Positions 2,508-30,511 are shown, counted from the first letter of the stretch. The stretch is DNA of 64,000 nucleotides from Desulfobacteraceae bacterium (GCA_004796375.1 QZLA01000348.1:1-64000), one strand, 5' to 3'. The notes: generated by a model not told the origin, from the letters alone. Translations and numbers: made by a program.

Positions 2508-2510
2508 ATG

Positions 2511-3401: not shown

Positions 3402-3420
3402 CATTATTCTCCTTGGAAAT

Positions 3421-5651: not shown

Positions 5652-5681
5652 GAATGATCCTCCTATGATTACTTTTACGGT

Positions 5682-6917
5682 TTAGGAATCCTGGCGCCTG
5701 GCGGTCAGTGCGTCGGTCCGTGCCCGGAATTTTTCGTTCATCTGGCCCAGCGCATTGGAACTCTGGCTGGCAATGCTGATGGTCTCCTGGCAGATCTGTG
5801 CATAGGTATCGAACGCTTTTTCATACGTCTGACAGGCCTCTTCCAGGGCATCGATGTTTACGGTCATGCTCTGGCTCATCTTTGCACCCTTGACAGCCGC
5901 ATCCCCGATGACCCGGGCAGTGTCTTTCATGGTTTCTGCGGCCGCCTGCTGGACCATGTCCAGGTGCTGCAGGGTTTCCATCTGCTGCTCGGCTGCCACC
6001 CGGACGGCCAATGCGTTTTTCACGGCCGTGGACAGGATCATGTCGGTCCGCTGGACCAGGCGGCGGACCAGGTGAGAGTTTCTTACCATCATTTCACCCC
6101 CAAACCGGGTCTGGAGATTCGAATTGTCAATGGTCTGAAGATCCACTACGGCCATGGCAAGATCCGAGCACAATGTGGTCACCGCTTCTTTCACCCGGGG
6201 ATCTGAAATGGTCGGCAGCTGATCCTGCAGTTTTTTCCAGATCAATTGACCCAGGAAGATCTGCTCCTGGAGTTTGGGCTGGATCTCTTTGAGGGAATCA
6301 CAGATCGTGGTCAACTCTGCCGCATCCATAGCCACCTGGTCCGCCTCACGGCGCAGGTGGTCCCGGATACCGTCGATGGTCGAGTTGACCGATTCCCGTC
6401 GTTCGGCAATAATTTTGAGGACTTCGTCGCCTTTGGGCATGCGGGATACCGATTTGGTAAACAGTCCCATCACCTTCTTGGAGAACTCGGCCGGGGTGCG
6501 GGCCACCACCGTGGGGTTCACCTTGTCCAGCTCCAGCTTGATGGCCAGGATATTCTTCCCGACCGGGGAGGAGTCATCCTGGGCCACGTTTTTAAGGACA
6601 GAGCCCATTTTCCGGTCATACAGGCTGACCTGCGCCTGGGTTTCATTCATTACATCCTGGCCCATGTTGAACACAAAGTTGCCCAGCTGCCAGTCTGACG
6701 GGTCGGTCCCGACCTTGTCGGCAAACTCCTGTGCCTGGGTTTCAAGGGCATTGATATCATCATCACTGAGGTGTTTCGGAACCACCGGAACAATATTGGA
6801 TGGGGCCTGTACCGGTGTGAGGGCACCCTGGCCGGATACCTCGGAAGCATCTGCCAGGACCGGGGCCTTGGCTTGGTCAAGAACGGATTGAAGATCTTGG
6901 GTCGTCTGGGAATCCAT
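5682..6917 (-). CDS. Toxic anion resistance protein, TelA-like
   Basis: 411 residues, largely alpha-helical with coiled-coil character and no membrane segment; AAGGAGGAATT precedes the ATG. Length and features such as QLGNFVFNMG, LQDQLPTISDPRVKEAV and the helical QMETLQHLDMVQQA match the TelA/KlaA family, named after plasmid tellurite resistance but widely found with envelope-stress genes. The chromosomal context suggests a structural or regulatory envelope role rather than tellurite detoxification. It is the second gene of the operon. Confidence 0.85.
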   Translation of the reverse strand: MDSQTTQDLQSVLDQAKAPVLADASEVSGQGALTPVQAPSNIVPVVPKHLSDDDINALETQAQEFADKVGTDPSDWQLGNFVFNMGQDVMNETQAQVSLYDRKMGSVLKNVAQDDSSPVGKNILAIKLELDKVNPTVVARTPAEFSKKVMGLFTKSVSRMPKGDEVLKIIAERRESVNSTIDGIRDHLRREADQVAMDAAELTTICDSLKEIQPKLQEQIFLGQLIWKKLQDQLPTISDPRVKEAVTTLCSDLAMAVVDLQTIDNSNLQTRFGGEMMVRNSHLVRRLVQRTDMILSTAVKNALAVRVAAEQQMETLQHLDMVQQAAAETMKDTARVIGDAAVKGAKMSQSMTVNIDALEEACQTYEKAFDTYAQICQETISIASQSSNALGQMNEKFRARTDALTARRQDS

Positions 6918-6954
6918 AATTCCTCCTTAAAATTTTGGCCAGTGTCAGGGCCGG

Positions 6955-7488
6955 TTATGAGAATTTGGTGGACAGGAAATTGGCCATGGTTTTAAACTCG
7001 GCGGTTTCATTTTTTTCAACAATGGCTCGGGATCTTTTGGATACTTCGGAAAGGTTGTCGATGGTTTTGGTAAAAATGTCCAGCTGGTGGGCGCGGCTTT
7101 CAAGGGATAAATCCATAAACTCCTTGACGGTTTTATAAAAGTGCTGCTGGCCGATTTTTTTTATTTCATAAGTCAGGGTTTCCGACGGATAGCGTTCCAT
7201 CATCTGCGGGATCACCACCCGAAGATCATCAATGATCGCCTCGAGCTTTTCCAGGATCGCCTCATCCAGATCAGGGTCCTTCCGGATCAGGATGTTCAGG
7301 GCCAGCAGGGAATCCAGGATCTGGCGGTATTCGTTTTCAGGTGCGGGCTCACTTGCGGGCGATGCCTGGGCCAGGGTCTGGGCCGCTTCCTGGATCACCG
7401 ATCCGGCACCCTTTTTCTGTGAACGGAGAAACAGGATCACTCCGATAATAATGCCCACAGCAATCAACAGGACAATAATACTTGACAT
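6955..7488 (-). CDS. Single-TM helical protein upstream of telA-like gene
   Basis: 177 residues from the ATG at 7488 (6 bases after AAGGAG; the adjacent ATG at 7491 is possible). One N-terminal membrane helix (SIIVLLIAVGIIIGVILFL) is followed by a short Ala/Pro-rich linker and a wholly helical, charged cytosolic domain with DPDLDEAILEKLEAIIDDL and TLTYEIKKIGQQHFYKTVKE. TelA genes in Firmicutes are often paired with XpaC-type proteins; this may be the counterpart, but I cannot show homology. First gene of the operon. Confidence 0.7.
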   Translation of the reverse strand: MSSIIVLLIAVGIIIGVILFLRSQKKGAGSVIQEAAQTLAQASPASEPAPENEYRQILDSLLALNILIRKDPDLDEAILEKLEAIIDDLRVVIPQMMERYPSETLTYEIKKIGQQHFYKTVKEFMDLSLESRAHQLDIFTKTIDNLSEVSKRSRAIVEKNETAEFKTMANFLSTKFS

Positions 7489-7529
7489 CATATACTCCTT
7501 GGTTGAGGGTGAATGCCGTTAATCATTTA

Positions 7530-7557
7530 AACATAATGCGCAAAGAGCTGTTTTCAA
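7530..7557 (-). promoter_or_regulatory. Candidate sigma-70 promoter of the envelope operon
   Basis: Reading the minus strand, TTGAAA (7557-7552) is followed after 16 bases by TATGTT (7535-7530), about 40 bp before the first operon gene. It is the best -35/-10 pair in the 7501-7651 gap; the match is moderate. Confidence 0.4.
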
Positions 7558-7601
7558 CTTAGGAAAATGTTAAAAAGTGTAGGATTTTCATTTCATACCA
7601 T

Positions 7602-7660
7602 GGCTCCTGGCAAACCGCAATCAGGTTTTTACCGGGTGTGCCCAAGAACCGTCAGGAGCC
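7602..7660 (-). terminator. Possible stem-loop after the hybrid kinase pair
   Basis: GGCTCCTG at 7602-7609 pairs perfectly with CAGGAGCC at 7653-7660, enclosing 43 bases that hold a second partial GGTT/AACC pairing. It overlaps the stop of the 7652 kinase. There is no clear U-run, so intrinsic termination is uncertain. Confidence 0.3.
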
Positions 7661-9886
7661 GGGGTGGTCGAAAATATTCCTGATTTTTGCGCAAAGGTCC
7701 CTGACCAATATCGGCTTCATGACCATATCGGCAAACCCGATCTCTTTGGCGTGGGCCAATGTGATCTCTTCACTGAATCCTGTGGACATGATCACAGGGA
7801 TATCTCCACGTATCCGGTGCAGCTCTTTGACCAGTTTATCGCCCCGGATTCCCGGCATGGACAGGTCGGTAATCACCAGGTCAAAGCGGTCCGGTGATTG
7901 ACAAAACTGCGTGATGGCGGCTTCAGGATCTGAGAATTCACTGGTCTGGTACCCCAGCCGATTCAGCGCTTTTTTCTGCATATCCAGGATCGCCTCTTCA
8001 TCATCAACCAGGAGGATGTGTTCATCTCCTGCAAAGGGTTCCGGGTTTTCCGGATCCGGGGCTTGGCGGACAGTGGAGAGAGCATCCAATACCGGAATAT
8101 ACACCCTGAATTCAGTTCCCTCTCCAGGTTCGCTTTTCACACGGATACTGCCGTTCATTTTTTTTACAATACCATGGGTGACGGACAGTCCCATACCGGT
8201 ACCCTTACCTTTTTTCTTTGTGGTGAAAAACGGGTCAAATATTTTATCAATGATTTCGGGTGGAATACCTTTTCCGGTATCGGCAATAGTCAGGCAGACG
8301 TAACTGCCGGGTGTCAGTCCATGATCCTGCAGGTCATCCGGAGTGATGGCCGCCTCATCCAGGGTTATCCGGATTTCACCCGGATCGTCGCCGATGGCAT
8401 GAAACGCGTTGGTGGTCAGGTTCATAATAATTTGATGAAGCTGCGTGGCGTCGGCATGGATGGGGCTGCAGTCCTTGTTCAGGGAGTTTTTTATCTCAAT
8501 ATGCCGGGGGATGGTCGACCGCAATAGTTTGACGGCTTCCTTGAGAATGATCTGAAACCGTATCGGGTGATGATCGACATCATCCTGCCGGGAAAAGGCA
8601 AGGATCTGATGAACCAGTTCTTTGGCACGCAATGCACTGGCATGTATCTGGTTCAAACTCTCCCGGGTGGCGGTATCCGCCTCCTTTTTATCCTCCATCA
8701 GCATCTCTGTGAATCCGAGGATGGGAAACAGGATGTTGTTAAAGTCATGGGCGATGCCCCCGGCCAGGGTGCCGATGGCCTCCATCTTCTGTGCCTGCTG
8801 AAGCCTGGATTCATATTCGATCTGCTTTTTTTCAAGCGTTTTGATGGTGGTAACATCGGTGTGGGTCCCGAGGATTCGCAGCGGGCCATTCTGATCGTCC
8901 CATTGCAGCAGTTTTCCCCGGGCCACCACCCATCGGAAGGAACCATCCTTGCAGCGGATACGGTGGCGGTTCATGAAATAGGGGCGATCTGGACGGATAT
9001 TCTGGTAAAGGTCCGATTGGAGACGGGGCCGCTCTTCCTCAGAGACCCGGTCGAGCCATTCATCGATATGATCCTGGATGTCGTGCGCCTCATACCCGAA
9101 CATTCTTTTCCACTGTGAGGAGAAAAACACCCGGCCGGTCTGAAGATCCCAATCCCACACCCCGTCGCCCGCACCCTCCAGTGCAAAATGCCATCTTTCT
9201 TCACTCTCTTTTAAGGACAGGATGGTCCGGTCATGGGCTTTTACCTTTTCTTCAAGCTGGGTGGCGGTGTCCTGGAGCAAGCGGCTCGTCTCCTGGGCGT
9301 GCCCTAACGAGTAGGCGATACCCTGAATCAGTCTTGCCATGGCAATGACAGATATCATGCTTAAAAACATCAGGGTGACCGACGTGGTCATCCAGGTGTC
9401 AGACGTATGTAATTCAAGATGAATCCACGCGTTAAAGTCTTGATTGAGAAGGTACTGGAAGATCGTCAGGATGATACACTGGCCGCAAAGGACAATGAGC
9501 CCTGACCGGATTCCCAGGATCAGGGTGGCAAAAACCGAGGTGGTGTACAGCCAGATCCTTGCACTGCCGATGGGGCCGGTGGAGAAAAGGGACAGTGAGC
9601 CCAGGCCGAAGAATATCATCACGCCTGCCCATGCTCTGATCTTAAAAGGAATCGGTTGGGTAAAGGCAAGGGTAAGGCAGAAAAGATAGGAGAGATGGTA
9701 GGCGATCAGGTTGAACCAGAGTCCGTCCTCAATCGCCGCAAAAGTACTCCTGACCAGGGCCGGAAGTGCGGTGATACAGATGGCTGCAATGACAAACCTG
9801 AAACTGTTTTCCTGCCACTGTCTCAGGGTCAGTGACTGGTCAACCAAAAAAAAACGCTGTAAAAATGCCGGTAAGAAACGCTTCAT
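7652..9886 (-). CDS. Hybrid sensor histidine kinase (TM-PAS-HisKA-HATPase-REC)
   Basis: 744 residues. About six or seven N-terminal membrane helices (to ~residue 195) and a short coiled coil lead to a PAS/PAC unit (GDGVWDWDLQTGRVFF), a HisKA H-box (GTLAGGIAHDFNNILFPIL), an ATPase domain (N-box NLTTNAFHAI, G-box DTGKGIPPEI, FDPFFTTK) and a C-terminal receiver (LLVDDEE, phospho-acceptor in LVITDLSMPG). The start abuts the stop of the upstream kinase with no gap, so the two are co-translated. No separate response regulator is adjacent; output must go through phosphotransfer elsewhere. Signal unknown. Confidence 0.92.
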   Translation of the reverse strand: MKRFLPAFLQRFFLVDQSLTLRQWQENSFRFVIAAICITALPALVRSTFAAIEDGLWFNLIAYHLSYLFCLTLAFTQPIPFKIRAWAGVMIFFGLGSLSLFSTGPIGSARIWLYTTSVFATLILGIRSGLIVLCGQCIILTIFQYLLNQDFNAWIHLELHTSDTWMTTSVTLMFLSMISVIAMARLIQGIAYSLGHAQETSRLLQDTATQLEEKVKAHDRTILSLKESEERWHFALEGAGDGVWDWDLQTGRVFFSSQWKRMFGYEAHDIQDHIDEWLDRVSEEERPRLQSDLYQNIRPDRPYFMNRHRIRCKDGSFRWVVARGKLLQWDDQNGPLRILGTHTDVTTIKTLEKKQIEYESRLQQAQKMEAIGTLAGGIAHDFNNILFPILGFTEMLMEDKKEADTATRESLNQIHASALRAKELVHQILAFSRQDDVDHHPIRFQIILKEAVKLLRSTIPRHIEIKNSLNKDCSPIHADATQLHQIIMNLTTNAFHAIGDDPGEIRITLDEAAITPDDLQDHGLTPGSYVCLTIADTGKGIPPEIIDKIFDPFFTTKKKGKGTGMGLSVTHGIVKKMNGSIRVKSEPGEGTEFRVYIPVLDALSTVRQAPDPENPEPFAGDEHILLVDDEEAILDMQKKALNRLGYQTSEFSDPEAAITQFCQSPDRFDLVITDLSMPGIRGDKLVKELHRIRGDIPVIMSTGFSEEITLAHAKEIGFADMVMKPILVRDLCAKIRNIFDHPGS

Positions 9887-12244
9887 TTAGGGTTCCTGTC
9901 GCAATACACCATTGACCTTGATGGCAAGGTCCTTAAGAGAGAATGGTTTGGCAATGAAGTTGATTCCCTCGTCCAGGACCCCGTGGTGGGCAATTACATT
10001 GGCCGTGTAACCGGACATGTACAGGGTTTTCAGTTCAGGGCAGATCAGGTGGATCTGGCTGGTGAGTTCCCGGCCATTCATCTGCGGCATGATCACATCG
10101 GTGATGAGCAATTGAATACTCCGCCCGTCAGACCGGGCAATAGCCAGTGCATCATCCGGTGTATCTGCTGTCAGGACTTTGTAATTGAGGCTTTCGAGCA
10201 TCTGCTTGCCCAGCTCCAGAATGGATGCGTCATCTTCGATCAGCAGGATGGTCTCCTCGTTGCCCTGGGGAATCACATCCAGGGATTTGGGTTCCAGTTC
10301 AACGGTTTTACCGGCATGTTTGGCCAGGTAAATTTTAAAGGTGGTTCCCTGCCCGGGCTCACTGTATACATTGATAAATCCGCTGTTCTGTTTCACAATA
10401 CCGTAAACCGTTGCAAGGCCCAGCCCGGTACCCTCACCCACACCTTTGGTGGTAAAGAACGGTTCAAAGATCTGGTCCATGATCTCTTTGGGAATGCCCT
10501 TACCGTTGTCGCTGACGGCCAGCATGGCATACTGGCCGGGCTGGAAACCGGGGTGATCTTCACAGTACTTTTTACCCAGTGACATATTCAGGGTTTCAAT
10601 GGTGATCTTTCCCACACCTGAAATAGCATCCCGGGCGTTAACGCAGAGATTCGCCAGGATTTGATCCACCTGTGACGGATCGATTTTCACAGGCCAGAGG
10701 TTTTCGTCAGGCATCCAGGCCAGATCAATGTCCTCTCCAATGAGCCGGCGAAGGATTTTGAGCATGCTGTCCACGGTTCTGTTCAGGTCAATCACCTTGG
10801 GGTCCACGGTCTGCTTGCGGGCAAACGCCAGCAGCTGACGGGTGATCTCGGTGGCCCTCCGGGAAGCCGAAAGGATGGCCTCCAGGTTTGAATGCAGGGG
10901 GTTATCCTCTTTCATTACAGCCATGGAAAGCTCGGCATAACCGATGATAATGCTGGAGATATTGTTGTAATCATGAGCAACACCGCCGGCAAGGCGTCCC
11001 ACCGATTCCATCTTCTGGGCCTGTATCAACTGGTTTTCCAGAAGTTTTAACTCCTCCTCTGCTTTTTTCCTGATGGTGATGTCCTGAAAAATTCCCTTGG
11101 TCACCATGGGTGAACCGTCATCGCTGTAAAGGTGATCGGCCACCGCATAGATGTTGATGGTATCACCGCTCTGCTGGATCAGGCGGAACTCGACAGCCAG
11201 AGATTCATGGTCGGCAATGGCGTGTCGCAGCTCCTCCCGGATACGCTCCTGATCATCATCATGGATCAGGCTGAAAAAATCATCGTCGGAAAAGGGTTCG
11301 ATAATATCGGTATAGCCAAGCAGCCTGAAAAATCCTTTGGACCAATAGGTGTTATCGGTTTTCCAGTTTTTTTCAAAGTATCCCAGTTTGGCGATGGTTT
11401 CAGCCTGTTCAAGGGAACTGAGGCTTTTCTGCAGGATTTTTTCCTCATTTTCAAGTTTGGATACCAGTTCTTTTTCTCTCTGAAAGGATACTTTGAGGTC
11501 ATAGTTGGCCTGATGCAGTTCCTTGGTCCGTTCTTTCACCATCTGCTCAAGCCGGATGTTCATATTGGTGGTTTTGCTTTCTGCAATCTTGAGCAGGTCA
11601 TTGAGCATGAAGTCTCTTCGGGACATCAGTTCCAGGGCATAGCAGACCATCATTCCTAAAAGGTTAATGCCGAACATGTAGAAAAAATCGGTCAGGATCA
11701 CCATGCGGTCAAGCTGGGCAAAAATGACGGCACTGACCGAGTACAGGGTGACGATGGTATTACCGGCAAATGCGGCCCACAAAAAGGTAAGCCGGATAAA
11801 GGCATAGCAGAAAAACAGACAAAAGATAATACCGATGAAATTATAGACCGGGTATGTGGCGCTTGTGATGACCGACACAGTAGTAAACCCGGCACCTGTG
11901 GCCAGGACATAGAAGGCGAACAGCTGCTGCCAGAACCGGGCATAATACTTCAGGGCGAAAAAGGAAGCGGCAAGCCCGAGAAGGAACACCAAAGTGACCG
12001 TCAGGATGACCAGGGTCCAGGTGCCCAGCCGTCCGGGATCAATGAAAAAGGCATCCCACATCCCCACGATACAAAAAAAGAATATGGATATCACATGACA
12101 GATCCTGCCCACCTGCAGGTTGCTTTCAAAGTAGGAAGATTTGAATCTGGCTTCAAGGTTTCTGTCGTGAAAGGAGAGGGTCATCCGGTTGATTGAGAAA
12201 TCGATTCCGCTCTTTTCACGACTGTCTGTAAACTGACTGAACAA
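9887..12244 (-). CDS. Hybrid sensor histidine kinase (TM-coiled coil-PAS-HisKA-HATPase-REC)
   Basis: 785 residues. The start is a TTG at 12244, supported by AAGGAG five bases before it; the next in-frame ATG lies about 20 codons later. Six or so membrane helices end near residue 210, then a coiled coil (~230-285), PAS/PAC ([19 protein letters not shown]), H-box ([19 protein letters not shown]), ATPase motifs ([28 protein letters not shown]) and a receiver with LLIEDDAS and [13 protein letters not shown]. It shares architecture with the following kinase but the sensor halves differ, so they may read different cues into a shared pathway. Confidence 0.92.
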
Positions 12245-12516
12245 TCAATCTCCTTAGAACAGTGAGGTGCGGTTTTTGCCGGTTGAACCGTTTATGTTTT
12301 TCTCAAAAAGATATCATAACATTATTCGTGGACTGATCAAAGTCTGTTTTTGTGAAAAAGTAAAAATATGGATTGGCGAATAGCACCTGCGCCCGGTTAT
12401 TCGGAACAGACCCCAAAAAAAATCGTCGTATCATCTGTTTTGACCTAAACCCCTCAATGAAGTTGTTTTGGGTACCTTCATCAAGCCTGTGACACCAATC
12501 TTCAATGGATACCAAC
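12245..12516. other. AT-rich intergenic stretch, no gene seen
   Basis: This spacer separates the divergent kinase operon from the Cache gene. A possible 70-codon frame on the minus strand has no ribosome site or recognisable family and is not called. Regulatory elements of the Cache gene follow at 12517-12577. Confidence 0.5.
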
Positions 12517-12545
12517 TTGGCATCGTAACAAAGCGGCTATATACT
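12517..12545 (+). promoter_or_regulatory. Sigma-70-type promoter of the Cache gene
   Basis: TTGGCA (12517-12522), a 17-base spacer and TATACT (12540-12545) each match consensus at five of six positions. The predicted start near 12552 gives a leader of about 35 bases. Confidence 0.6.
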
Positions 12546-12577
12546 TTTCGTAATTCCAAACAGATCGTTACGAAAAG
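12544..12577 (+). promoter_or_regulatory. Perfect 10-bp inverted repeat over -10 and ribosome site
   Basis: CTTTTCGTAA (12544-12553) and TTACGAAAAG (12568-12577) are exact inverted copies 14 bases apart. The left arm begins in the -10 box and the right arm contains the AAAAGG ribosome site of the gene at 12587. A dimeric repressor site is the simplest reading; because transcription should start at the edge of the left arm, an RNA hairpin would be only partial. Confidence 0.55.
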
Positions 12578-12586
12578 GACATTCCC

Positions 12587-13051
12587 ATGAAAATTTCTAT
12601 GATTTTAAGGTTGATGGTGTTTGTTTGCCTGATGGTTTTTCTCGCGTCAGGCAAGGGGGTTGCCGCTGAAACGGCAACCAAAGAGGAGTGTGTCGCCAAA
12701 TCAAAAGAAGCCGCAGAACTGGTCAATTCCGCAGGGCTGGATGCGGCCATTGAAAAGATCAATGACCCGAATGGACCCTTTGTCTGGAAAGATACCTATG
12801 TGTTTGCACTGGATATGGATTCCGGAAAGGTCATCGCCCATCCCATCAAACCGAAACTGATCGGTAAGATGTTGACCGGTCTAAAAGACGTCAACGGTAA
12901 AATGTTTTTTGTCGAGTTCATCAATGTCGGTAAGAGTAAAGGGGAAGGATGGGTCGATTACATGTGGCCCAAACCGGGCGAAAATTATCACGCTTTCCCT
13001 CCTGGGAATTACCGGTATGTGTATGATTTCCGGGGTCAATGCCTATCTTGA
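12587..13051 (+). pseudogene. Exported Cache-domain protein, 3' end replaced by out-of-frame sequence
   Basis: The frame encodes 154 residues: a signal peptide (cleavage near GVAAE), then a single-Cache sensor fold with FVWKDTYVFALDMDSGKVIAHP and GWVDYMWPKPGE, the usual landmarks of single-Cache proteins. In relatives WPKPGE is followed by about 20 residues (a lysine-rich strand and a G-x-G strand). Here coding similarity stops at 12982, where the sequence joins a chemotaxis receptor fragment in another frame, leaving an unrelated tail. The product may still be made, but it lacks the last strand of the domain. Confidence 0.65.
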
Positions 13052-13679
13052 TCTGAACCGGCGGGTTGACCAGAACGTCAACTATATCAGCCAGGAGACG
13101 GTCAGGTTCGCTATCCAGCGGGGGGCTGTCGAGAACCAGGTACTCGACGGCGTGACGGCAACGGTGATCGATTCTCACAAGGCCGTCCAGATCAAGATCA
13201 ATGATGCATTAAAACGTATTGAGGATCAATCTGCAAGCCAGGCCGTAAAGACAATCATTGAAAAGATCAATGCCGATGAAACCCGTCATGCCGAACTCTT
13301 TAATGAAGTGACCCAAAATGTAAGCGACATCGGCACGGAAAAGGTGTCCATAACAGATACCCTCAAACAGTTGGGTGATACGTTGGGGGAGGCGATTTCC
13401 ACCATAGATGCCGAGGAGGTGGAACTGGCCATGGAGGGAGAAAACCTGGACGGGATGACACAGATCTCAGAGGTGATCCAGGAGGTCGATGGCATTGAGT
13501 CCACCATTGCCACGGCTGTAGAGGAGCAGTCCGCATCTTCAAAGGAGATTGCCCATAATATTTCCCAGGCCTCTGCCGGTGAAATTGCAAACCAGAGTTC
13601 CCAAGTGAATTTGAGCGCAGAAACCCTTGCACGGTTGGCAGAAGGTTTGGAGAAACTGGTTAACCGGTTTAAGATTTAA
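12978..13679 (+). pseudogene. Decayed methyl-accepting chemotaxis protein fragment
   Basis: From about 12978, in a frame different from the Cache gene, the translation reads like a chemotaxis receptor: first membrane helix (IITLSLLGITGMCMISGVNA), helical ligand domain (RRVDQNVNYISQETVRFAIQ), then signalling-domain pieces (STIATAVEEQSASSKEIAHN) and the usual C-terminal LARLAEGLEKLVNRF. The conserved hairpin tip that binds CheA/CheW is missing, the second membrane helix and HAMP are not seen, and SQASAG joins directly to EIANQSS, implying several internal deletions. No start of its own remains. Non-functional as a receptor. Confidence 0.75.
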
Positions 13680-14280
13680 CCGGCAGGCGCTCCGTGAGTA
13701 AAGCGGCTGGATTCAGGGATCTGATCTGGGCGACCGTCATGGGGTCAACTTCCCGGTGACGGGTGGGTGGCCATCCTAAGAAATGGGTGATCAGGATCTG
13801 AAGTGTATCGCCATGGGACACCAGTAAAATGGATTTCTTCTCATGGCATGCCTCCAGACCGGCGATGCACGCCAACGCCCGGGAGAGAACCTGTTCAACC
13901 GGCTCTACCTGGTGGCGGGTGGTCATGTTGCGGTCATCGGCCCATACCTTGCCATAGTTCTTATCGGAGGTCAGCTCCCACGTCCCGAAAAATCGCTCCC
14001 TGATCAGAGAGGAATGCTCTACAGCCGTGTTACACTGGAGCAGGTCCCTTACCTCCTGGGCGGTCTGGCGCGTTCTTAAGAAATCGGATGCCACGATCCG
14101 GGTGGATGCGTCCAGGACCGGCCAGCCCTTGATGGCCTCCCGTGCCTGGTGTTTTCCCTTGTCGGTCAGCCCGTAGGCATCGATCCCGTGTTCCGGGCTG
14201 CTGACAATAATGCCTTTTACATTGGCCATACTCTGGCCGTGCCTCATGATGTAGTACCTGTTTCTAAGGGGATGTTTCAT
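13669..14280 (-). CDS. Histidine phosphatase family protein (phosphoglycerate mutase-like)
   Basis: 203 residues. The catalytic RHG near the N terminus (YYIMRHGQSMAN), SDFLRTRQTA and the second histidine in VSHGDTLQI define the histidine phosphatase superfamily. No membrane or signal segment. Substrate cannot be assigned; related proteins include cobalamin and sugar-phosphate phosphatases. It converges on, and overlaps by 11 bp, the chemotaxis receptor remnant. Confidence 0.85.
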   Translation of the reverse strand: MKHPLRNRYYIMRHGQSMANVKGIIVSSPEHGIDAYGLTDKGKHQAREAIKGWPVLDASTRIVASDFLRTRQTAQEVRDLLQCNTAVEHSSLIRERFFGTWELTSDKNYGKVWADDRNMTTRHQVEPVEQVLSRALACIAGLEACHEKKSILLVSHGDTLQILITHFLGWPPTRHREVDPMTVAQIRSLNPAALLTERLPVKS

Positions 14281-22650: not shown

Positions 22651-22746
22651 ACAGTGTGTAAATTTGTGGAAACTTATTTTTAATCGGGGCGATCTGATGG
22701 AAAACGCAACGCGGCGATATCCGGATTATGGCTTTCGTCAGATCGC
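22651..22746 (+). other. Inverted repeat after typA
   Basis: GCGATCTGA (22689-22697) and TCAGATCGC (22738-22746) are exact 9-bp inverted copies flanking about 40 bases; the pairing can extend with a bulge into GGAAA/CTTTC. No U-run follows. It may end typA transcription or insulate the downstream promoter. Nothing else is seen here. Confidence 0.4.
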
Positions 22747-22873
22747 TAACTCTAACCTAACAAGCTTCTAACACTTATCTAGTCGAATTTTAACCAAATT
22801 TTAGCGCCATTCAAACTTTTTTAACAAAATCCTAACATTTTTATTGACACACGAACCCGAGTATTGGTATGGA
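22747..22873 (+). promoter_or_regulatory. Array of TAAC boxes at 11-bp pitch with promoter (Pho-box-like)
   Basis: TAAC or close variants begin at 22747, 22758, 22769, 22780 (TAGT), 22791, 22802 (TAGC) and 22813 (AAAC), each exactly 11 bp apart; two more start at 22822 and 22833, also 11 bp apart but shifted by 2. TTGACA follows at 22844-22849, with a weak -10 (TATGGA) at 22868-22873. Direct repeats on one DNA face are the hallmark of OmpR/PhoB-family sites (Bacillus PhoP uses TTAACA with similar pitch). It lies about 200 bp before the gene at 23077. Confidence 0.6.
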
Positions 22874-23076: not shown

Positions 23077-23319
23077 ATGAAATTCATCCCTAAAGGTCTG
23101 ACATTTGGTAATCTGGCAATCGGTGCCGGTGTTGTTCTCCTTGCACCTGTGGTCATTCCCATTGTGGGCAGTGTGGCCAAGCCGGTGGTAAAGGCAGCTA
23201 TCAAGGGCGCGCTGGTCACCTACGAGGGTGCCAAGGTGGCCCTGGCTGAAGCCAAGGAGTCCCTGGAGGACATGACGGCGGAAGCCAAGGCTGAAATCGC
23301 CAAAGATCCAGCAGAGTAG
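23077..23319 (+). CDS. DUF5132-like small membrane-associated protein
   Basis: 80 residues. A hydrophobic, glycine-rich helix (NLAIGAGVVLLAPVVIPIVG) is followed by an amphipathic helix rich in Ala, Lys and Glu (KAAIKGALVTYEGAKVALAE). The pattern matches DUF5132, small proteins repeatedly found beside HMA_2 and P-type ATPase genes. The helix composition suggests a membrane-inserting or oligomerising accessory protein. First gene of the TAAC-box cluster. Confidence 0.7.
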   Translation: MKFIPKGLTFGNLAIGAGVVLLAPVVIPIVGSVAKPVVKAAIKGALVTYEGAKVALAEAKESLEDMTAEAKAEIAKDPAE

Positions 23320-23352
23320 AGATTGATGACGCAGAAGAGGGGGCTGTAGAAT

Positions 23353-23874
23353 ATGTTGCCCCAGGCTACACTGGCTCACCATATCAACGGCAGGGCCCGG
23401 ATCAGGATCACCGGGCTTGGACGCGGGGCGGAATCGTTTTTCGAGCGGACGCAGAATAAACTGACGGAAAAGTTTAAATGCTGTGTGACGGTTTATCCGA
23501 CCACCCGCAGCATGGTAATTGAGGCGCCGGACCTGGATATTGACACGGTGTATCAGTATGCCGAATCCGAGCAGCTGTTCACACCCGCTCCGGCCAGGAC
23601 GCCTCAGAAAAATGTGGTGGCCAGCGTTGCCACAACCTATTTCAATCGATTCGATCAGGGGTTGAGGACCCTGACGTCCAATCGCCTGGACGTTTCGAGC
23701 TCGGTATTCATGGTGCTGATTATACATGCATGCCGTGAGATCCTCAATGGCAATTTGAGGACGCCATCGTGGTTTACCGCACTATGGTTTGCGTCAACCA
23801 TATATAATAGGGATTTCCTGAATTCGGGTCATGATGACGGGCAGCATCAGGATGAGGGGGGACATGATGGATAA
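23353..23874 (+). CDS. HMA_2-like domain protein with a C-terminal hydrophobic segment
   Basis: 173 residues. The first ~75 residues follow the HMA_2 pattern (HHINGRARIRITGL, then a helix and strands ending TTRSMVIEAPD) but lack the CxxC of true heavy-metal domains. Then comes a linker, a hydrophobic helix (VFMVLIIHACREIL) and a His/Asp-rich tail (GHDDGQHQDEGGHDG) that could bind divalent cations. The ribosome site is weak. Probably an accessory of the P-type ATPase encoded next. Confidence 0.65.
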   Translation: MLPQATLAHHINGRARIRITGLGRGAESFFERTQNKLTEKFKCCVTVYPTTRSMVIEAPDLDIDTVYQYAESEQLFTPAPARTPQKNVVASVATTYFNRFDQGLRTLTSNRLDVSSSVFMVLIIHACREILNGNLRTPSWFTALWFASTIYNRDFLNSGHDDGQHQDEGGHDG

Positions 23875-23900
23875 AAGTGTGACAAAAAAGGAGTAAGAAA

Positions 23901-26900
23901 ATGAAGACCATTATGCCTGTTCATACAGCGGTTAAAGGCAGGGGACGGTTCAATATTCCCCGACTCAAACGGTCTGTGAAATTAAAAGACTCCCTTGAAG
24001 CAAGCCTTGGGGCGCATCCATCGATTCTCGGGATATCAGCAAGCACAGTCACGGGTAAACTCCTGGTGCACTATGATCCTGCGCTGGGGTGTGACGATGT
24101 CACCCATATAATCGAGAAAAGCCTATCAAAAATTCCTGAAACCCGGGGTGCTCAAAATACGGCACCCACAGATTCCGACGCCTCAAAAGGACAGACGCAC
24201 AGGCCCAAGACAGAGCCGCAGCAGGATTCTGAAGCGGAGGACAAGGAAAAATCCAGGACCCAAAGGGCCATGGAAAAGCTTCAGTCCCTGCTCCAGCCGG
24301 GGGCGAGAGTACCGGAAGAAAAATGGTTTACCCGCTCCACCAAAAATGTACTTGCCCATTTTCAGTCCGATTCAAAACAGGGGCTTGATGCCAAGACCGT
24401 TTCGCAGCGCAGGAAAGCGTATGGTGAAAATCTTTTGCCAAAAACCACATCCCGTTCCGGTGTCGAGATTTTCATGGAACAGATGAATTCCCTGCCGGTA
24501 TACCTTTTAGGAGCCGCGGCCGGTGTTTCTATTATTACCGGGGGTATCCTGGATGCCGTGATTATCGGCGGTGTGGTGGTGGCCAACGGCATTATCGGTT
24601 ATGTGACTGAGAGCAAAGCGGAAAAGAACATTGATGCGCTCAATGAACTGGTACACCATATGGCAGAGGTCATTCGGGACGGCAAGCCTGTTTTCGTATC
24701 CGCCGAAGAGGTGGTGCCCGGTGACATTCTGATCCTCAAGCCCGGATCCTATGTGCCGGCGGACAGCCGCATCATACAGGCATCACAGCTGACCATCGAT
24801 GAAAGTATGCTCACCGGTGAAAGCCTGCCGGTTGAAAAATCTGCACGACCCGTTAAGAATGCCGACGCATCACTGGCTGACCGTAAAAACATGGCATTTA
24901 TGGGAACCTGCATCACCGGCGGCCAGGGCCAGGCCGTGGTGGTGGCAACAGGTGCTGATACCGAGATCGGCAAACTCAAGGTGCTGCTCAATGATACCCT
25001 GGTTCCCCAGACCCCCATTGAACGCCAGCTGGATTCCATCGGAAATCAGCTGATCCTGATGTGCGGTGCCGTGTGCGGCGGAATATTCTGCCTGGGGCTG
25101 GCCATGGGATTCGGATTTTTGAACATGCTTCGCATGTCCATTTCCCTGGCCGCTGCAGCCGTACCCGAAGGGCTGCCGGCCATGGCCACGGTGAATTTTG
25201 CCCTGGGCATCAACCGGATGAAGGAGCAAAATATCATTGTCCGGCACCTGCCGGCGGTTGAAACCCTGGGTGCGATCCAGACCATCTGCCTGGACAAGAC
25301 CGGTACCATCACCAAGAACCAGATGACGGTGACCACGCTTTACACCGGTCACAAGTGGGTGTCCCTTGAGAAAGATACATTGGTTTCCAATGATCAGGCC
25401 ATGGGTAGTGCCGATGCAAAGGAACTGGAAAAACTGCTGATGGTGTGTGCCCTGTGCTGTGAAACCCGGATTAACGGTATATGCTCGGACGGCCGGCTGG
25501 ATATTTCCGGCTCTGCCACCGAAAGCGCTTTGACTGAACTGGTGGACACTGCCGGGATTGATGTCAAGAAGGTGAGGAAGGCATCGCCTTTGCTCAAGAT
25601 CAACCACCGATCCGAGAAACGCCTGTTTATGAGCACGGTGCACCAGATCGATCGGGAAAATGAACACCTGCTCATGGTGAAGGGCAGCCCCCTTGAAGTG
25701 CTGGCCCGTTGTGATCATCACATCGTTGACGGCCAGACACTGGAATTGACCCGTAAAGACCGGGAGGATGTGGCCCGGGCCAATGAGTCCATGGCAAAGG
25801 ATGCCCTGCGGGTACTGGGTTTTGCCTATCGCTATGTGGATATCAATGAGGCGGGCGAACCTGAAACCGGCATGATCTGGCTGGGTCTGGTCGGGATGAT
25901 GGATCCGCCGAGGGACGGTATCCGTGAGTTGATCCGGCAGTTTCACCGGGCAGGGGTCCGCACGGTCATGATTACCGGCGACCAGCGTATTTCAGCCTGT
26001 GCCATCGCATCCTACCTGGATCTATCCCAGGGAGAAGCCCTGGACATCATGGATGCGGATGAGTTGAACACTCTGGAGGAACGGGAGCTCATGGAGCGGG
26101 CCAAAAACGTCCATGTTTATTCACGGGTGACCCCGTCCCAGAAGCTGAAAATTGTACAGGCGATCCAGGCCTCGGGCCAGACCGTGGCCATGACCGGGGA
26201 CGGCATAAATGACAGTCCGGCATTAAAAGCGTCTGATATCGGGATTGCCATGGGGGAAAGCGGTACCGATCTTGCCCGGGATGTGGCGGATGTGGTCCTG
26301 ACCCGTGACAACCTGGAACTGATGGCCTCGGCATTGGCGGACGGCAGAAGTATTTACCAGAACATCAGGAAATCGGTTCATTTTTCCCTGGCCACCAATA
26401 TCAGCGAAATCCAATTGATCGTGATGGCCATTGCCATGGGGATGCCGTCGCCCCTGAACGTGATGCAGCTCTTGTGGATCAACCTGATCTCCGATATCTT
26501 TCCGGGGCTGGCCCTGTCGGCTGAAAAGCCGGAGGTAGACGTCATGGAGGAGTCCCCGCGTGATCCTGAAGAGGAGCTGTTTGACAAAAAGGATTTCAGG
26601 ACCATGATGCTGGAGTCCACAGCCATTACCGGGGGGGCTCTGGGCTCCCTGTTTTACGGAATTTCGCGTTATGGTGCAGGTGCGGCAGCGGGTGGGCTGG
26701 CTTTTCAGACCCTGACCATCGGCCAGCTGCTTCATGCCATCACCTGCCGTTCAGAAAAGACCGGTGCCTTTACAAAGAAAAAACTGCCAAAGAACAGGTA
26801 CCTGGATTGGGCGGTGGGCGGATCAATCGTTCTCCAGATGGCCACCATGTTCTTCCCGCCGCTGCGCGCACTGCTGGGACTGACCTCCATCGGGCTGATG

Positions 26901-27083
26901 GACGGCCTGGTGATCGGTGCAACCTCAACGGTTCCGCTCCTGGTGAACGAGGCGATCAAGGCGGTGAAGGAGCCGGCAGTGGATGCGGATGATCCGGCAA
27001 AAGAGCCTGATTCCGAAACAGGGATCGGTTCTGATGCAGGCCGGGAAAAGATCGAAACTGAATTTACAGACTTATATAATTAG
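23901..27083 (+). CDS. Cation-transporting P-type ATPase, PEGLP type with N-terminal HMA_2-like domain
   Basis: 1060 residues. Residues 1-85 form an HMA_2-like domain (GRGRFNIPRLKRS) without CxxC; a charged linker runs to ~140. Then come the cation-ATPase N domain, actuator motif LTGES, membrane-helix motif VPEGLPA, phosphorylation site LDKTGTIT and hinge GDGINDSPALK, with about six C-terminal helices from residue ~835. PEGLP places the pump in the P2 class (Ca/Mn or monovalent cations), not the CPx heavy-metal class. The cation is unknown; the neighbouring CaCA exchanger favours Ca or Mn. Confidence 0.9.
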   Translation: MKTIMPVHTAVKGRGRFNIPRLKRSVKLKDSLEASLGAHPSILGISASTVTGKLLVHYDPALGCDDVTHIIEKSLSKIPETRGAQNTAPTDSDASKGQTHRPKTEPQQDSEAEDKEKSRTQRAMEKLQSLLQPGARVPEEKWFTRSTKNVLAHFQSDSKQGLDAKTVSQRRKAYGENLLPKTTSRSGVEIFMEQMNSLPVYLLGAAAGVSIITGGILDAVIIGGVVVANGIIGYVTESKAEKNIDALNELVHHMAEVIRDGKPVFVSAEEVVPGDILILKPGSYVPADSRIIQASQLTIDESMLTGESLPVEKSARPVKNADASLADRKNMAFMGTCITGGQGQAVVVATGADTEIGKLKVLLNDTLVPQTPIERQLDSIGNQLILMCGAVCGGIFCLGLAMGFGFLNMLRMSISLAAAAVPEGLPAMATVNFALGINRMKEQNIIVRHLPAVETLGAIQTICLDKTGTITKNQMTVTTLYTGHKWVSLEKDTLVSNDQAMGSADAKELEKLLMVCALCCETRINGICSDGRLDISGSATESALTELVDTAGIDVKKVRKASPLLKINHRSEKRLFMSTVHQIDRENEHLLMVKGSPLEVLARCDHHIVDGQTLELTRKDREDVARANESMAKDALRVLGFAYRYVDINEAGEPETGMIWLGLVGMMDPPRDGIRELIRQFHRAGVRTVMITGDQRISACAIASYLDLSQGEALDIMDADELNTLEERELMERAKNVHVYSRVTPSQKLKIVQAIQASGQTVAMTGDGINDSPALKASDIGIAMGESGTDLARDVADVVLTRDNLELMASALADGRSIYQNIRKSVHFSLATNISEIQLIVMAIAMGMPSPLNVMQLLWINLISDIFPGLALSAEKPEVDVMEESPRDPEEELFDKKDFRTMMLESTAITGGALGSLFYGISRYGAGAAAGGLAFQTLTIGQLLHAITCRSEKTGAFTKKKLPKNRYLDWAVGGSIVLQMATMFFPPLRALLGLTSIGLMDGLVIGATSTVPLLVNEAIKAVKEPAVDADDPAKEPDSETGIGSDAGREKIETEFTDLYN

Positions 27084-27091
27084 GTAATGCT

Positions 27092-28120
27092 ATGGATGCA
27101 ATGTTCAACACAGCTATATCTGCGTCATCACTTCCGGTCCTGTTATTGATAATCGGTATCCTGATCTATATCCTCGGGAAGGGTGCCGATCTTCTGGTAG
27201 ATGAGGCCGTGGTGCTGTCCACCCGGATGGGGATTTCCAAGGTATTGATCGGTGTGACCATTGTCAGTCTGGGGACCACGGTCCCTGAAGCCGCCGTTTC
27301 CGTATTCGCCGCGGTGAAAGGACGGCCGGAGATCGCCCTGGGCAATGCCGTGGGCTCGATTATCTGCGATACCGGTTTGATCCTGGGATTGATCACGCTG
27401 TTTGCCCCTATTTCCCTGAAAAACAGTGTGATTCACCGGCAGGGGTGGTTTCAGCTTTTTGCAGGCGTTTTGCTGGTGGGATCCTGTATCCCCTTTTTCG
27501 GTGATATCCGGGTATTCCAATCCGGTGGCACGCTGCCCAGGCAGATGGGAATCGTATTCCTGGTTCTCCTGGCAGTTTATTTATGGGGCTCCATCCGCTG
27601 GATGAAAGATGACACCATAGACGAAAAAGATGATGAAACCGAGCAGGCCCAGTGGCGGGTCGTGACCACCGTCGGAAAGATCGTCCTGGGTTCGGGCATG
27701 GTGGTGATATCATCCCATTTCCTGATCCCGACGGTTCAGGCATCTGCGTTACGCCTGAGCCTTCCGGAGGGCCTGATCAGTGCGACACTGGTAGCATTCG
27801 GCACCTCACTGCCGGAGTTGGTCACCTCGGTGACCGCCGTCAGAAAAGGATATGGAGAGCTTGCCCTGGGTAATATCATTGGAGCGGACATTCTAAACGT
27901 GCTCTTTGTTGCCGGTGCTTCAGCCACTGTCACCAGTGGCGGTCTTGAAGCTCCGGTTCATTTTTTCAAGCTTTTGTTTCCGGCCATGATGGGCACCCTG
28001 ATTATTTTCAGGCTGGGGATACACTATTCAGGCCATGTCTTTAAAAAACAGTTCAGTATCATGCTGCTGTGCATTTATGCCATCGTTACCGTTTCCAGTT
28101 ATCTGGGAATTGCAGCATGA
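27092..28120 (+). CDS. CaCA-family sodium/calcium exchanger-like protein (YrbG type)
   Basis: 342 residues, about ten helices. Two alpha repeats are evident: GTTVPEAAVSVFAAVKGRPE with GNAVGSIICDTGL, and GTSLPELVTSVTAVRKGYGE with GNIIGADILNVL. Acidic residues in the G-T-x-x-P-E motifs coordinate the cation in the family. Starts 9 bp after the ATPase stop, so co-expressed; together they would move the same ion by ATP-driven and secondary routes. Confidence 0.88.
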   Translation: MDAMFNTAISASSLPVLLLIIGILIYILGKGADLLVDEAVVLSTRMGISKVLIGVTIVSLGTTVPEAAVSVFAAVKGRPEIALGNAVGSIICDTGLILGLITLFAPISLKNSVIHRQGWFQLFAGVLLVGSCIPFFGDIRVFQSGGTLPRQMGIVFLVLLAVYLWGSIRWMKDDTIDEKDDETEQAQWRVVTTVGKIVLGSGMVVISSHFLIPTVQASALRLSLPEGLISATLVAFGTSLPELVTSVTAVRKGYGELALGNIIGADILNVLFVAGASATVTSGGLEAPVHFFKLLFPAMMGTLIIFRLGIHYSGHVFKKQFSIMLLCIYAIVTVSSYLGIAA

Positions 28121-28190
28121 ACCCTACAGATATCGGCCGTGTATTGTACAAGCACATGAAAAAAGAGTGAATTGAATATAAGGAGGAGTG

Positions 28191-28790
28191 ATGTACTGGA
28201 TTTCCGTTTCCGCGCTGGCTGCTGTTGCCTATTTTTATTCCAAAGGAAAAAAATGTGCTGCAGCGGTAAAAGGGGATGAATCATCCGCTAAAGCCGGATC
28301 TGTAAAAGAAGAGAGCGTCCAACAAGATGAGGCCGGAAAGGATTCTTCCGGCGTACCCGAGCCGGAGGACACCCCGGTCAAGGATGAGCAGGCGGAAAAG
28401 ACAGATGATTCCAATCAGTTCCTGGCATCCATGGCCCATGTATCCGACCCGCTGGAGCGTCATGCCCGCTATATGGATGAGATTGACAGGGCGTATAAAA
28501 AGAGAAATATAGAAGACGGTATGCGGGATCTGTTTTTAGAGTATGCCCAGCACTATGTGAGTGAATTTTCGTCACTCAAAGATGCGGTGCTCAAGCAGTT
28601 CGGAGACAATCCCAAGCTGGTGACGGTCTTTAAGCAGCTGGCCATTGTGTATGAAGAGTCACAGCTGTATGACCGGGCCATTGAACTGTGTGAGGCAGCC
28701 ATCGGGTATGGCCTTGAGGATGGGACCAAAACCGGTTATCCCGGCCGGGTTGCGAGAATAAAAAAGAAAAGCGCCAACAGCAATCGTTAG
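28191..28790 (+). CDS. TM-anchored protein with acidic linker and helical domain
   Basis: 199 residues from the ATG at 28191, after AGGAGG. One N-terminal hydrophobic helix (ISVSALAAVAYFYSKGKK) is followed by a ~60-residue Glu/Asp/Ser-rich linker and a helical C-terminal domain (~85-190) containing TPR-like helices (VFKQLAIVYEESQLYDRAIE). No enzyme signature. May be a scaffold for the ATPase cluster, of which it seems the last plus-strand gene. Confidence 0.65.
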   Translation: MYWISVSALAAVAYFYSKGKKCAAAVKGDESSAKAGSVKEESVQQDEAGKDSSGVPEPEDTPVKDEQAEKTDDSNQFLASMAHVSDPLERHARYMDEIDRAYKKRNIEDGMRDLFLEYAQHYVSEFSSLKDAVLKQFGDNPKLVTVFKQLAIVYEESQLYDRAIELCEAAIGYGLEDGTKTGYPGRVARIKKKSANSNR

Positions 28791-28794
28791 CGCT
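28770..28794 (+). terminator. Weak stem-loop at the end of the ATPase cluster
   Basis: AGCGCCAAC (28770-28778) pairs with GTTAGCGCT (28786-28794) with one mismatch across a 7-base loop, overlapping the stop codon. A genuine U-run is absent. Confidence 0.3.
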
Positions 28795-28824
28795 CTTCAG
28801 GGGTAACCTAATTGGGAGCGGTTT

Positions 28825-29181
28825 CTATATAAAGGCGGCAATATAAGACAGGCCGTTGGCCTCTAATACCCGTCCGGCCAGGAATGAAAACGTGGCTTTG
28901 CCCAGCGTCAGGGCAAGTTTTTCATGCTGGGCACTGCTGGGCGTGCCGGACGTCTTGTCCACGTGATACCCGTTTTCAGACAGGATATCAAACAAATGGT
29001 CCGACCTGATGGAGAGTCTGTCATATTCCACGACAATACTTCCGGTCAGATCGTTGGTTTTCACTTTATACACGCCCTGGATACTCAGCAGGTCTTTAAC
29101 ATGCTGGAGGCGGTAGGGATTGTTTCTCAGCTTCTCAAATTTAACTCTCAGCCGTCCGGGAACATCATGTACACTATACAT
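28825..29181 (-). CDS. HMA_2 domain protein
   Basis: 118 residues. HDVPGRLRVKFEKLRNNPYR, SIQGVYKVKTNDLTGSIVV and EYD give a clear HMA_2 fold without metal-binding cysteines; the C-terminal 35 residues are hydrophobic (ATFSFLAGRVLEANGLSYIA) and may insert in the membrane. It is convergent with the ATPase operon but carries the same TAAC boxes upstream, so probably the same regulator. Confidence 0.75.
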   Translation of the reverse strand: MYSVHDVPGRLRVKFEKLRNNPYRLQHVKDLLSIQGVYKVKTNDLTGSIVVEYDRLSIRSDHLFDILSENGYHVDKTSGTPSSAQHEKLALTLGKATFSFLAGRVLEANGLSYIAAFI

Positions 29182-29224
29182 AGATGATCATTCTCCACTA
29201 GCAAAATTCACATTCACTGGACAG

Positions 29225-29288
29225 AATATAAAGTTCAATTGTTGGGAAAAAATTAGTGTAGTTTAAAAAATGTGTTAGGCGTCTGTTA
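29225..29288 (-). promoter_or_regulatory. TAAC-box promoter of the HMA_2 gene
   Basis: On the plus strand GTTA starts at 29274 and 29285 (11 bp apart), with looser copies at 29252 (ATTA) and 29241 (GTTG), i.e. also in 11-bp register; read on the minus strand they are TTAACA/CTAACA in the direction of transcription. A TATATT (29230-29225) lies downstream as a candidate -10. Confidence 0.5.
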
Positions 29289-29292
29289 AGGA

Positions 29293-29727
29293 TCAGTTTG
29301 TCTCGTCCGGCTCATCGACAAACGCCGTGATCCGGGCTTTGATATTATCCCGGATGTCCCGCACCTGATCCAGCTGTTCTTCATGGGTGCCGGCCGCGTC
29401 TTCGGGATCGGGAAACGGCCAGTTGAGGCGTTTGGTAATACCGGGAAACACCGGGCATCGGGCCTCGGTCTCAGCGTCACATACTGTGATCACATGGGTA
29501 AACAGCTCACCGTTTTTAAACAGGGTAAAGGCGCTTTGCGGGATTTTGTCCGACAGGTCAACCCCCTCCTCTTTCATCACTTCAAGAACGAGCGGGTTAA
29601 CCGATTCTGCCGGGTCGAGACCGGCACTTTTTACTTGATACTCCCCGTTGCCAAGCATCGTTAAATAGGCTTCTGCTATCTGGCTTCTGCCCGAATTTTT
29701 ACCGCAGATGAACAATACTTTTTTCAT
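29293..29727 (-). CDS. arsC: Arsenate reductase, low-molecular-weight phosphatase type
   Basis: 144 residues. The loop CGKNSGRSQ near the N terminus is the Cys-x5-Arg active site; VCDAETEARCPVFPG holds the second cysteine and WPFPDPEDAAG is the usual C-terminal signature of thioredoxin-coupled ArsC. It reduces arsenate to arsenite, or could act as a phosphatase. No arsenite pump or ArsR gene is adjacent; instead its promoter has the TAAC boxes of the ATPase cluster, consistent with phosphate-starvation control. Confidence 0.8.
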   Translation of the reverse strand: MKKVLFICGKNSGRSQIAEAYLTMLGNGEYQVKSAGLDPAESVNPLVLEVMKEEGVDLSDKIPQSAFTLFKNGELFTHVITVCDAETEARCPVFPGITKRLNWPFPDPEDAAGTHEEQLDQVRDIRDNIKARITAFVDEPDETN

Positions 29728-29780: not shown

Positions 29781-29817
29781 GTGAAATTTTTGTTAGGGAG
29801 TGGTTAGCAGGAGGTTA
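29781..29817 (-). promoter_or_regulatory. TAAC-box array before arsC
   Basis: GTTA begins at 29792, 29803 and 29814, exactly 11 bp apart, with GTGA at 29781 in the same register. On the minus strand these read TTAACC, CTAACC, CTAACA towards arsC. Confidence 0.55.
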
Positions 29818-29950
29818 AGGTACGATTTTGATTTAACCCGTAAAAAAAATGAATTATTTTTGATCGATTTTTTATATCAGGTGTCATTCATTAACAAAGG
29901 GGCAAATATCTTGTAATTCACCCCACGATGATAATAGAATGGAGGACATC

Positions 29951-30511
29951 ATGAGAACATCAATATCCATAAAAAAAGTAACTGTCGGTATTCTGGCTAT
30001 AATGATTTTAATTTCCCTGACCGCGGTTTCCGCCCATGCCGGTTCCGGTCGGCGCCATACGGCTGAAGGGATTATAATCGGCACTACCCTGGGATTTCTC
30101 GGGGCCAGCCTGATCCATGATATGCATGATGATCACCGGGTGACGGTGGAGCACCGGGTCGTGCATCACAAAAGGGGGCACCGGAGGTGGCACCGGGGTG
30201 ACGGGTGTGAACCCAGAGGATATGACAACGGAAACATCAACCGGCATCCCCGCAGAGGGCACAAACCCCGTCACAGCCGGGTCATCACCCTGGATGACTG
30301 GACCGATGATGAGCGGGTGGTCAGAAAACACCGCCGTCGAGGTCACTGGGAGATCAGGCGCATCTGGGTCCCTCCCGTGTACAAGGAAAAGTGGGTGGAG
30401 GGGCATTACAGCCACCGAAAAGGGCGCTGGGTCAGGGGGCACTGGAAGCGCAAGATGATCAGAGACGGATACTATAAAAAAGAAAAGGTCTGGGTGAGCC
30501 GCCGTTATTAA
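29951..30511 (+). CDS. Exported basic His/Arg-rich protein
   Basis: 186 residues from the ATG at 29951 (GGAGG five bases upstream). Signal peptide (TVGILAIMILISLTAVSAHA), a short glycine helix (IIIGTTLGFLGASLI), then a very basic region with many His/Arg and a C-terminal part with repeated GHW/GHY motifs (HRRRGHWEIRRIWVPP, KEKWVEGHYSHRKGRW), like YxxGHW-repeat envelope proteins. Function unknown; lies just before an ECF sigma factor gene and may be its target. Confidence 0.7.
   Translation: MRTSISIKKVTVGILAIMILISLTAVSAHAGSGRRHTAEGIIIGTTLGFLGASLIHDMHDDHRVTVEHRVVHHKRGHRRWHRGDGCEPRGYDNGNINRHPRRGHKPRHSRVITLDDWTDDERVVRKHRRRGHWEIRRIWVPPVYKEKWVEGHYSHRKGRWVRGHWKRKMIRDGYYKKEKVWVSRRY

Follow-up and report, generated by a model that had tools for sequence, protein, structure and literature searches.

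A phosphate-linked gene cluster of a Desulfobacteraceae bacterium encoding a P2A-type pump with HMA_2 and DUF5132 proteins: a candidate cation-transport module

The stretch of DNA analysed here, 64,000 nucleotides from a Desulfobacteraceae bacterium (GCA_004796375.1 QZLA01000348.1:1-64000; the whole stretch is called the window), carries between positions 23,077 and 29,727 a cluster of seven genes centred on a P2A-type ATPase and proteins with HMA_2 and DUF5132 domains. With about an even chance of being right, we read this cluster as a PhoB-controlled cation-transport module that extrudes calcium (possibly manganese) during phosphate starvation and is tied to membrane remodelling. The reading is based on gene content, conservation of the genes as a unit, arrays of Pho boxes, linkage to pst/pho genes, and the P2A catalytic and calcium-ligand residues of the pump. 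The cluster and its putative regulatory arrays comprise the following features:

22735..22836, plus strand: Pho-box-like array ahead of the operon, its CTAAC/TTAAC cores spaced 11 bp apart
23077..23319, plus strand: DUF5132 protein, 80 amino acids (Pfam PF17195, 3.3e-12, 46.7 bits, cut-off 25)
23353..23874, plus strand: HMA_2 protein called HMAtm, 173 amino acids (Pfam PF19991, 28.6 bits)
23901..27083, plus strand: P2A-type ATPase, 1060 amino acids, with HMA_2 at residues 2-59 (domain and motif matches)
27092..28120, plus strand: Na/Ca-exchanger family protein (CaCA), 342 amino acids (Pfam PF01699, 5.4e-48)
28191..28790, plus strand: membrane-anchored acidic protein, 199 amino acids, with a TPR-like C-terminus (orthologues in loci L023, L025 and L027)
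28825..29181, minus strand: small HMA_2 protein called HMAs, 118 amino acids (Pfam PF19991, 38.9 bits)
29252..29300, minus strand: Pho-box-like array upstream of the HMAs gene
29293..29727, minus strand: ArsC/low-molecular-weight-phosphatase-like protein, 144 amino acids (Pfam PF01451, 5.7e-14)
29781..29829, minus strand: Pho-box-like array upstream of the ArsC-like gene

The plus-strand genes from DUF5132 through the acidic protein (23077-28790), separated by gaps of 8-70 bases, are a single operon, and the core of this arrangement recurs in many sulfate reducers and Nitrospirota. In a sample of 192 genomes of the host's class DUF5132 was found in 16 and HMA_2 in 38, and wherever the HMA_2 protein is about 1000 amino acids long and hence the P2 pump (14 genomes, in one of which the assembly breaks it), a DUF5132 gene adjoins it. 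The other two DUF5132 matches are the weakest and lie beside shorter HMA_2 pumps of 720-770 amino acids; the shorter pump that was tested (L034) is P1B-type and located near feoB. When 85,000 species genomes were scanned with the HMAtm family, 70 loci carrying the whole module or parts of it came up, some of them in genomes that also belong to the class sample. By name all are from Nitrospirota, among them Nitrospira and Candidatus Magnetominusculus, or from Desulfobacterota-type bacteria ('Deltaproteobacteria'). The P2 pump was called in 63 of the 70, at least four of the remaining seven loci ending at or near a contig end, and HMAtm and the pump are encoded on the same strand wherever both were called (58/58). 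DUF5132 was called in at least 38 loci and the small HMA_2 gene in at least 43, both counts being minima as the open reading frame picker overlooks some genes. The exchanger was also found in L067, L124, L125 and L025; together with the acidic protein it is confined to a few Desulfobacterota lineages, and the two are therefore considered accessory, outside the core. An initial annotation of the window had proposed an ion-handling system that was to be given up if, among other things, HMA_2 and DUF5132 genes proved unlinked to P2 pumps elsewhere. They stand side by side with such pumps in 14 of the 16 genomes with DUF5132, and the gene-cluster survey it had called for showed the linkage in most of the 70 loci, in two phyla. 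What stands of the proposed gene set is a recurrent, phosphate-linked group with a P2 pump; the exchanger and the acidic protein do not belong to its core.

The link to phosphate rests on two lines of evidence. The box pattern YTAACN6YTAACN6YTAAC, allowing up to two mismatches, occurs nine times in the 64 kb against 0.19 expected, and the Pho-like boxes claimed earlier are thus present far above chance. When up to three mismatches are allowed, the window has 13 matches, every one of them within the three arrays, each of which lies upstream of and points at its own gene or operon. In the whole genome at one mismatch there are 18 matches against two for the reversed control. Genes at which boxes are directed include those for PstC, PhoH2 and a hexapeptide transferase of the phosphonate type; a box with two mismatches precedes a PstS-like gene. 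Further intergenic matches adjoin the genes of PhoU, UgpB and a PHO4-family transporter, though in the opposite orientation, and some others, such as that upstream of dnaA (L046), are without an evident phosphate link and may be due to chance. Boxes also precede the operon in Desulfobacula/Desulfotignum-type relatives (L118, L122, L124, L125 and L126), and a similar one lies upstream of the small HMA_2 orthologue in L125.

The second line comes from gene neighbourhood. Within the fetched stretches, genes for PstS, PstC/A or PhoU are found near the module in 13 of the 70 loci, when about 0.5 would be expected for genomes taken to be 4 Mb in size and to hold 1.5 pst operons. The count was restricted to these proteins; a cluster of 'PstB' proteins from 24 loci was rejected as phosphate evidence, since single linkage had pooled other ATP-binding cassette (ABC) ATPases into it. 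L072 has the order pump, MetK-like gene, PstS, PstC, PstA, PstB on one strand; in L074 and L078 module and pst genes are transcribed divergently, and in L078 phoB and phoR separate the two. We regard the phosphate link of the cluster as real. In the wider L072 region (766-14204) a small HMA_2 gene and a P1B-like HMA_2 pump accompany the P2 module, which comes with the MetK-like gene and pstSCAB; an ArsA/Get3-like ATPase is next.

The pump carries PEGLP and DKTGT motifs as well as Cation_ATPase_N and Cation_ATPase_C domains, in agreement with the P2 signature first noted. Its best NCBIfam models are those of the PMR1- and SERCA-type calcium pumps, the PMR1 type being the best, but it scores below the equivalog cut-off of each (640.9 against 798.3 for TIGR01522 and 522.3 against 703.4 for TIGR01116), and it is therefore classified as a P2A-type pump rather than as a PMR1 or SERCA equivalog. 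Among solved structures those of human SPCA1, of LMCA1 from Listeria and of SERCA are nearest. In 57 orthologous pumps the calcium-ligand positions of SERCA are almost completely kept (SERCA numbering: E309 in 56; N768, E771, N796 and D800 in all 57), the T799 position is Ser or Thr, and Gln occupies about the position of E908. Because of these conserved ligand positions the pump is likely to be calcium-type, with Mn2+ as a possible ion. P2 pumps move ions out of the cytosol. In three loci (L063:15810-18845, L065:16260-19316 and L070:16427-19342) the first pump is followed by another P-type pump, divergent in sequence and about 1000 amino acids long; in genomes G113 and G020 this second pump also has an N-terminal HMA_2 match.

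All three predicted HMA_2 domains of the cluster, one of them fused to the pump, are present and lack CxxC. HMAs and the pump N-terminus (30.2 bits) score above the Pfam cut-off of 30 bits, and HMAtm slightly below it, its assignment being backed by orthologues; besides its HMA-like domain HMAtm has two predicted membrane helices and a C-terminal PWYTxxWYA-like motif. CxxC is likewise absent from the N-termini of the 57 orthologous pumps, and the pattern occurs somewhere in a single one of 63 HMAtm relatives. The three domains share a basic GR.R-type motif, and alignments of the HMAtm and HMAs families show invariant His and Arg residues in a motif of the H..GR.R type. The AlphaFold2 (AF2) model of HMAs has the HMA fold (Z 9.6 to the ATP7B HMA domain and 9.3-9.4 to CopZ). 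That of HMAtm has a predicted local distance difference test score (pLDDT) of 94-98 over residues 1-80; Foldseek gave no match to it below E 0.001, which is not evidence against an HMA fold. A plain metallochaperone role was rejected because CxxC is missing, and from this absence together with the invariant basic residues we infer that the domains would act at anionic membranes and not as metal carriers.

Outside the window the commonest partner of the module is a MetK paralogue, encoded directly behind the pump in 42 loci (e.g. L067:13978-15201), often with a 4-base overlap. The four genomes that were checked all encode an ordinary MetK elsewhere. In all 42 paralogues D238 is replaced by His and K269 by Arg, and E55 and Q98 are also replaced, whereas the ATP/metal residues H14, D16, E42, K245, K265 and D271 are kept (E. 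coli MetK numbering). Although the proteins still score above the cut-off of the metK model, an ordinary S-adenosylmethionine synthase was rejected because these methionine-binding residues are replaced throughout. The paralogue may catalyse a new reaction, probably retaining ATP chemistry with a different acceptor or hydrolysing triphosphate. Another partner, a protein of about 230 amino acids found in 25 loci between the HMA_2 gene and the pump (e.g. L110:3275-3967), belongs to no Pfam family and has near-perfect 11-residue amphipathic repeats; its hydrophobicity spectrum peaks once, at 98 degrees (11 residues per three turns), which resembles the periodicity of the perilipin and alpha-synuclein lipid coats. 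Both of these partners are missing from the cluster in the window, whose genome encodes one MetK.

Several neighbours elsewhere point to phosphorus-free lipids: OlsB-like and OlsA-like genes near the module in four loci each, and phosphatidylserine (PS) decarboxylase and PHP-type glycosyltransferases in some loci. A fused PHP-like/glycosyltransferase protein, perhaps a glycolipid enzyme of phosphate starvation, is encoded in L118 (3922-6378) and seven other loci. Adjoining PS decarboxylase in L030 (4467-6947) is a protein of about 826 amino acids without a Pfam match, a relative of which (L047:1-555) lies next to a Pho-box-like site of the genome that the window comes from. A small zinc-ribbon protein is kept near the small HMA_2 gene (L094:20044-20346 and 14 other loci), and in 12 loci (L116:15648-15905 and 11 others) the module is directly followed by a gene for a small DUF3562-like protein.

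The remaining proteins of the cluster agree largely with their first description. DUF5132 is well above its Pfam cut-off and has a single hydrophobic segment and an amphipathic helix. The exchanger has two Na_Ca_ex stretches (163 bits) and represents a second calcium-type carrier within the operon. The anchored acidic protein has no Pfam family above cut-off; its start is ATG at 28191 (MYWISV...), as orthologues show, GTG at 28188 being disfavoured. The ArsC-like enzyme, relatives of which lie close to the module in five other loci, has the CX5R motif and two later Cys residues but falls below the arsenate reductase threshold (TIGR02691, 102.8 bits against 174.3). After the cluster (29939-30511) comes a basic, His/Arg-rich, secreted-looking protein without a family match.

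In the mechanism we propose, phosphate scarcity would induce the operon, and the P2A pump, assisted by the exchanger in the window's lineage, would move Ca2+ (possibly Mn2+) from the cytosol outward. The likely reason is that starved cells import metal-phosphate complexes and swap phospholipids for phosphorus-free lipids, both of which would alter free and membrane-bound Ca2+. The HMA_2 domains would tether pump and helper proteins to anionic surfaces of the membrane or act as sensors of anionic lipids, with DUF5132 and HMAtm as probable membrane-side partners. Several points weigh against this account. The lipid-binding role of the HMA_2 domains is itself inferred, the exchanger is missing from most loci, and the calcium-ligand residues do not discriminate Ca2+ from Mn2+. 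The 11-bp Pho-box array was seen in Desulfobacteraceae-like relatives and not in the other lineages; when the upstream regions of 61 loci were searched for 11-bp repeats without a preset motif, no signal common to the lineages emerged, and Pho boxes are therefore claimed for these relatives alone.

The pump, the HMA_2 proteins and membrane-shaping helpers might instead build or load an internal vesicle storing Ca (or Mn) with phosphate or polyphosphate, similar to a ferrosome or an acidocalcisome. The accessory logic is shared with HMA_2/P1B clusters beside feoB (L034), P1B-like HMA_2 pumps adjoin the P2 module in L068, L072 and L083, several helpers are membrane-anchored, and the pure 11-residue-repeat protein looks like a lipid coat. 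That protein is, however, not in the window, no FezC-like cytochrome was found among the cluster genes, and phosphate starvation is an odd moment for storing phosphate; we consider such storage unlikely and keep it in view since the partners are ferrosome-like and one protein resembles a lipid coat. Doubtful to a similar degree is a broader picture in which a new phosphate-controlled membrane system of two phyla uses the P2A pump, anionic-lipid-binding HMA_2 proteins and the perilipin/synuclein-like coat to form or load a Ca-handling membrane compartment during lipid remodelling, the MetK-derived enzyme of new specificity being its dedicated partner in most lineages.

The ion moved could also be Mn2+ or another divalent cation and not Ca2+, for instance to rebalance Mn and Mg as phosphate, their main cytosolic partner, falls. 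SPCA1, the nearest characterised pump, transports both Ca and Mn, and some loci have genes for CorA and for cation-efflux (CDF) proteins close to the module; against this, the full SERCA-like residue set, including the N768 and E771 positions missing in SPCA1, and the Na/Ca-exchanger family protein within the operon make another ion rather improbable. Pho control and the outward direction known for the P2 family would also suit a pump that chiefly feeds periplasmic Ca2+ to Ca-dependent Pho phosphatases or phospholipases, but the surroundings are usually rich in Ca2+ and no conserved phosphatase partner was found across the loci, and this role seems very unlikely. Hardly credible is an ordinary housekeeping Ca2+ pump placed near phosphate genes by chance: bacterial P2A pumps are common as a family, but the pst/pho linkage is repeated in two phyla far beyond expectation and the three Pho-box arrays are oriented towards their genes.

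Phosphate-starvation extrusion, the account we favour, would tie calcium-type pumping to the phosphate-starvation response and to membrane-lipid change in two bacterial phyla. Such a bacterial link of calcium pumping to phosphate starvation appears not to have been described before; neither DUF5132 nor CoBaHMA is mentioned in the literature searched, whose coverage leaves out most subscription papers. The cluster also shows that HMA_2 partners of the kind found with iron organelles serve a different class of pump, and a MetK paralogue lacking the methionine-binding residues predicts a new reaction.

Among known systems the ferrosome (fez) clusters, of which HMA_2-type partner proteins are a feature, likewise place a P-type pump with an N-terminal HMA_2-like domain beside separate HMA_2 proteins. 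As the initial annotation had held, this pairing is here built around a P2A pump, whereas the fez pump (FezB) is P1B-type. The ferrosome system also includes FezC, a DUF4405-like cytochrome (PMC11334425), and profile searches found no FezC or DUF4405-like domain among the seven proteins of the cluster. By these two features, pump class and FezC, the cluster is, as judged from its sequence, not a ferrosome cluster, and the neighbours of the module are phosphate genes, not iron genes. HMA_2 pumps (P1B-type where tested) near feoB-like genes, in a ferrosome-like layout, were seen at L034:6775-15955 and L037:1685-13187, the former stretch including a weak DUF5132-like protein. In bacterial acidocalcisomes or polyphosphate granules a Ca2+-ATPase is linked to phosphate (PMC4263762); the module, described here as a set of genes, shares a phosphate-linked Ca2+-type ATPase with these compartments. 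With SPCA1/PMR1, LMCA1 and SERCA the module pump has in common the catalytic motifs and calcium-ligand residues, and it differs from them in its N-terminal HMA_2 domain, dedicated HMA_2/DUF5132 partners, Pho linkage and the Gln near E908. The CoBaHMA family, which we take to be the one matching the HMA_2 domains of the cluster, is related to calcyanin, a GlyZip protein of calcifying cyanobacteria, and reportedly includes fusions to P-type ATPases. CoBaHMA domains and those described here have the HMA fold without CxxC and conserved basic residues in common, while the P2A context and the Pho control distinguish the present module.

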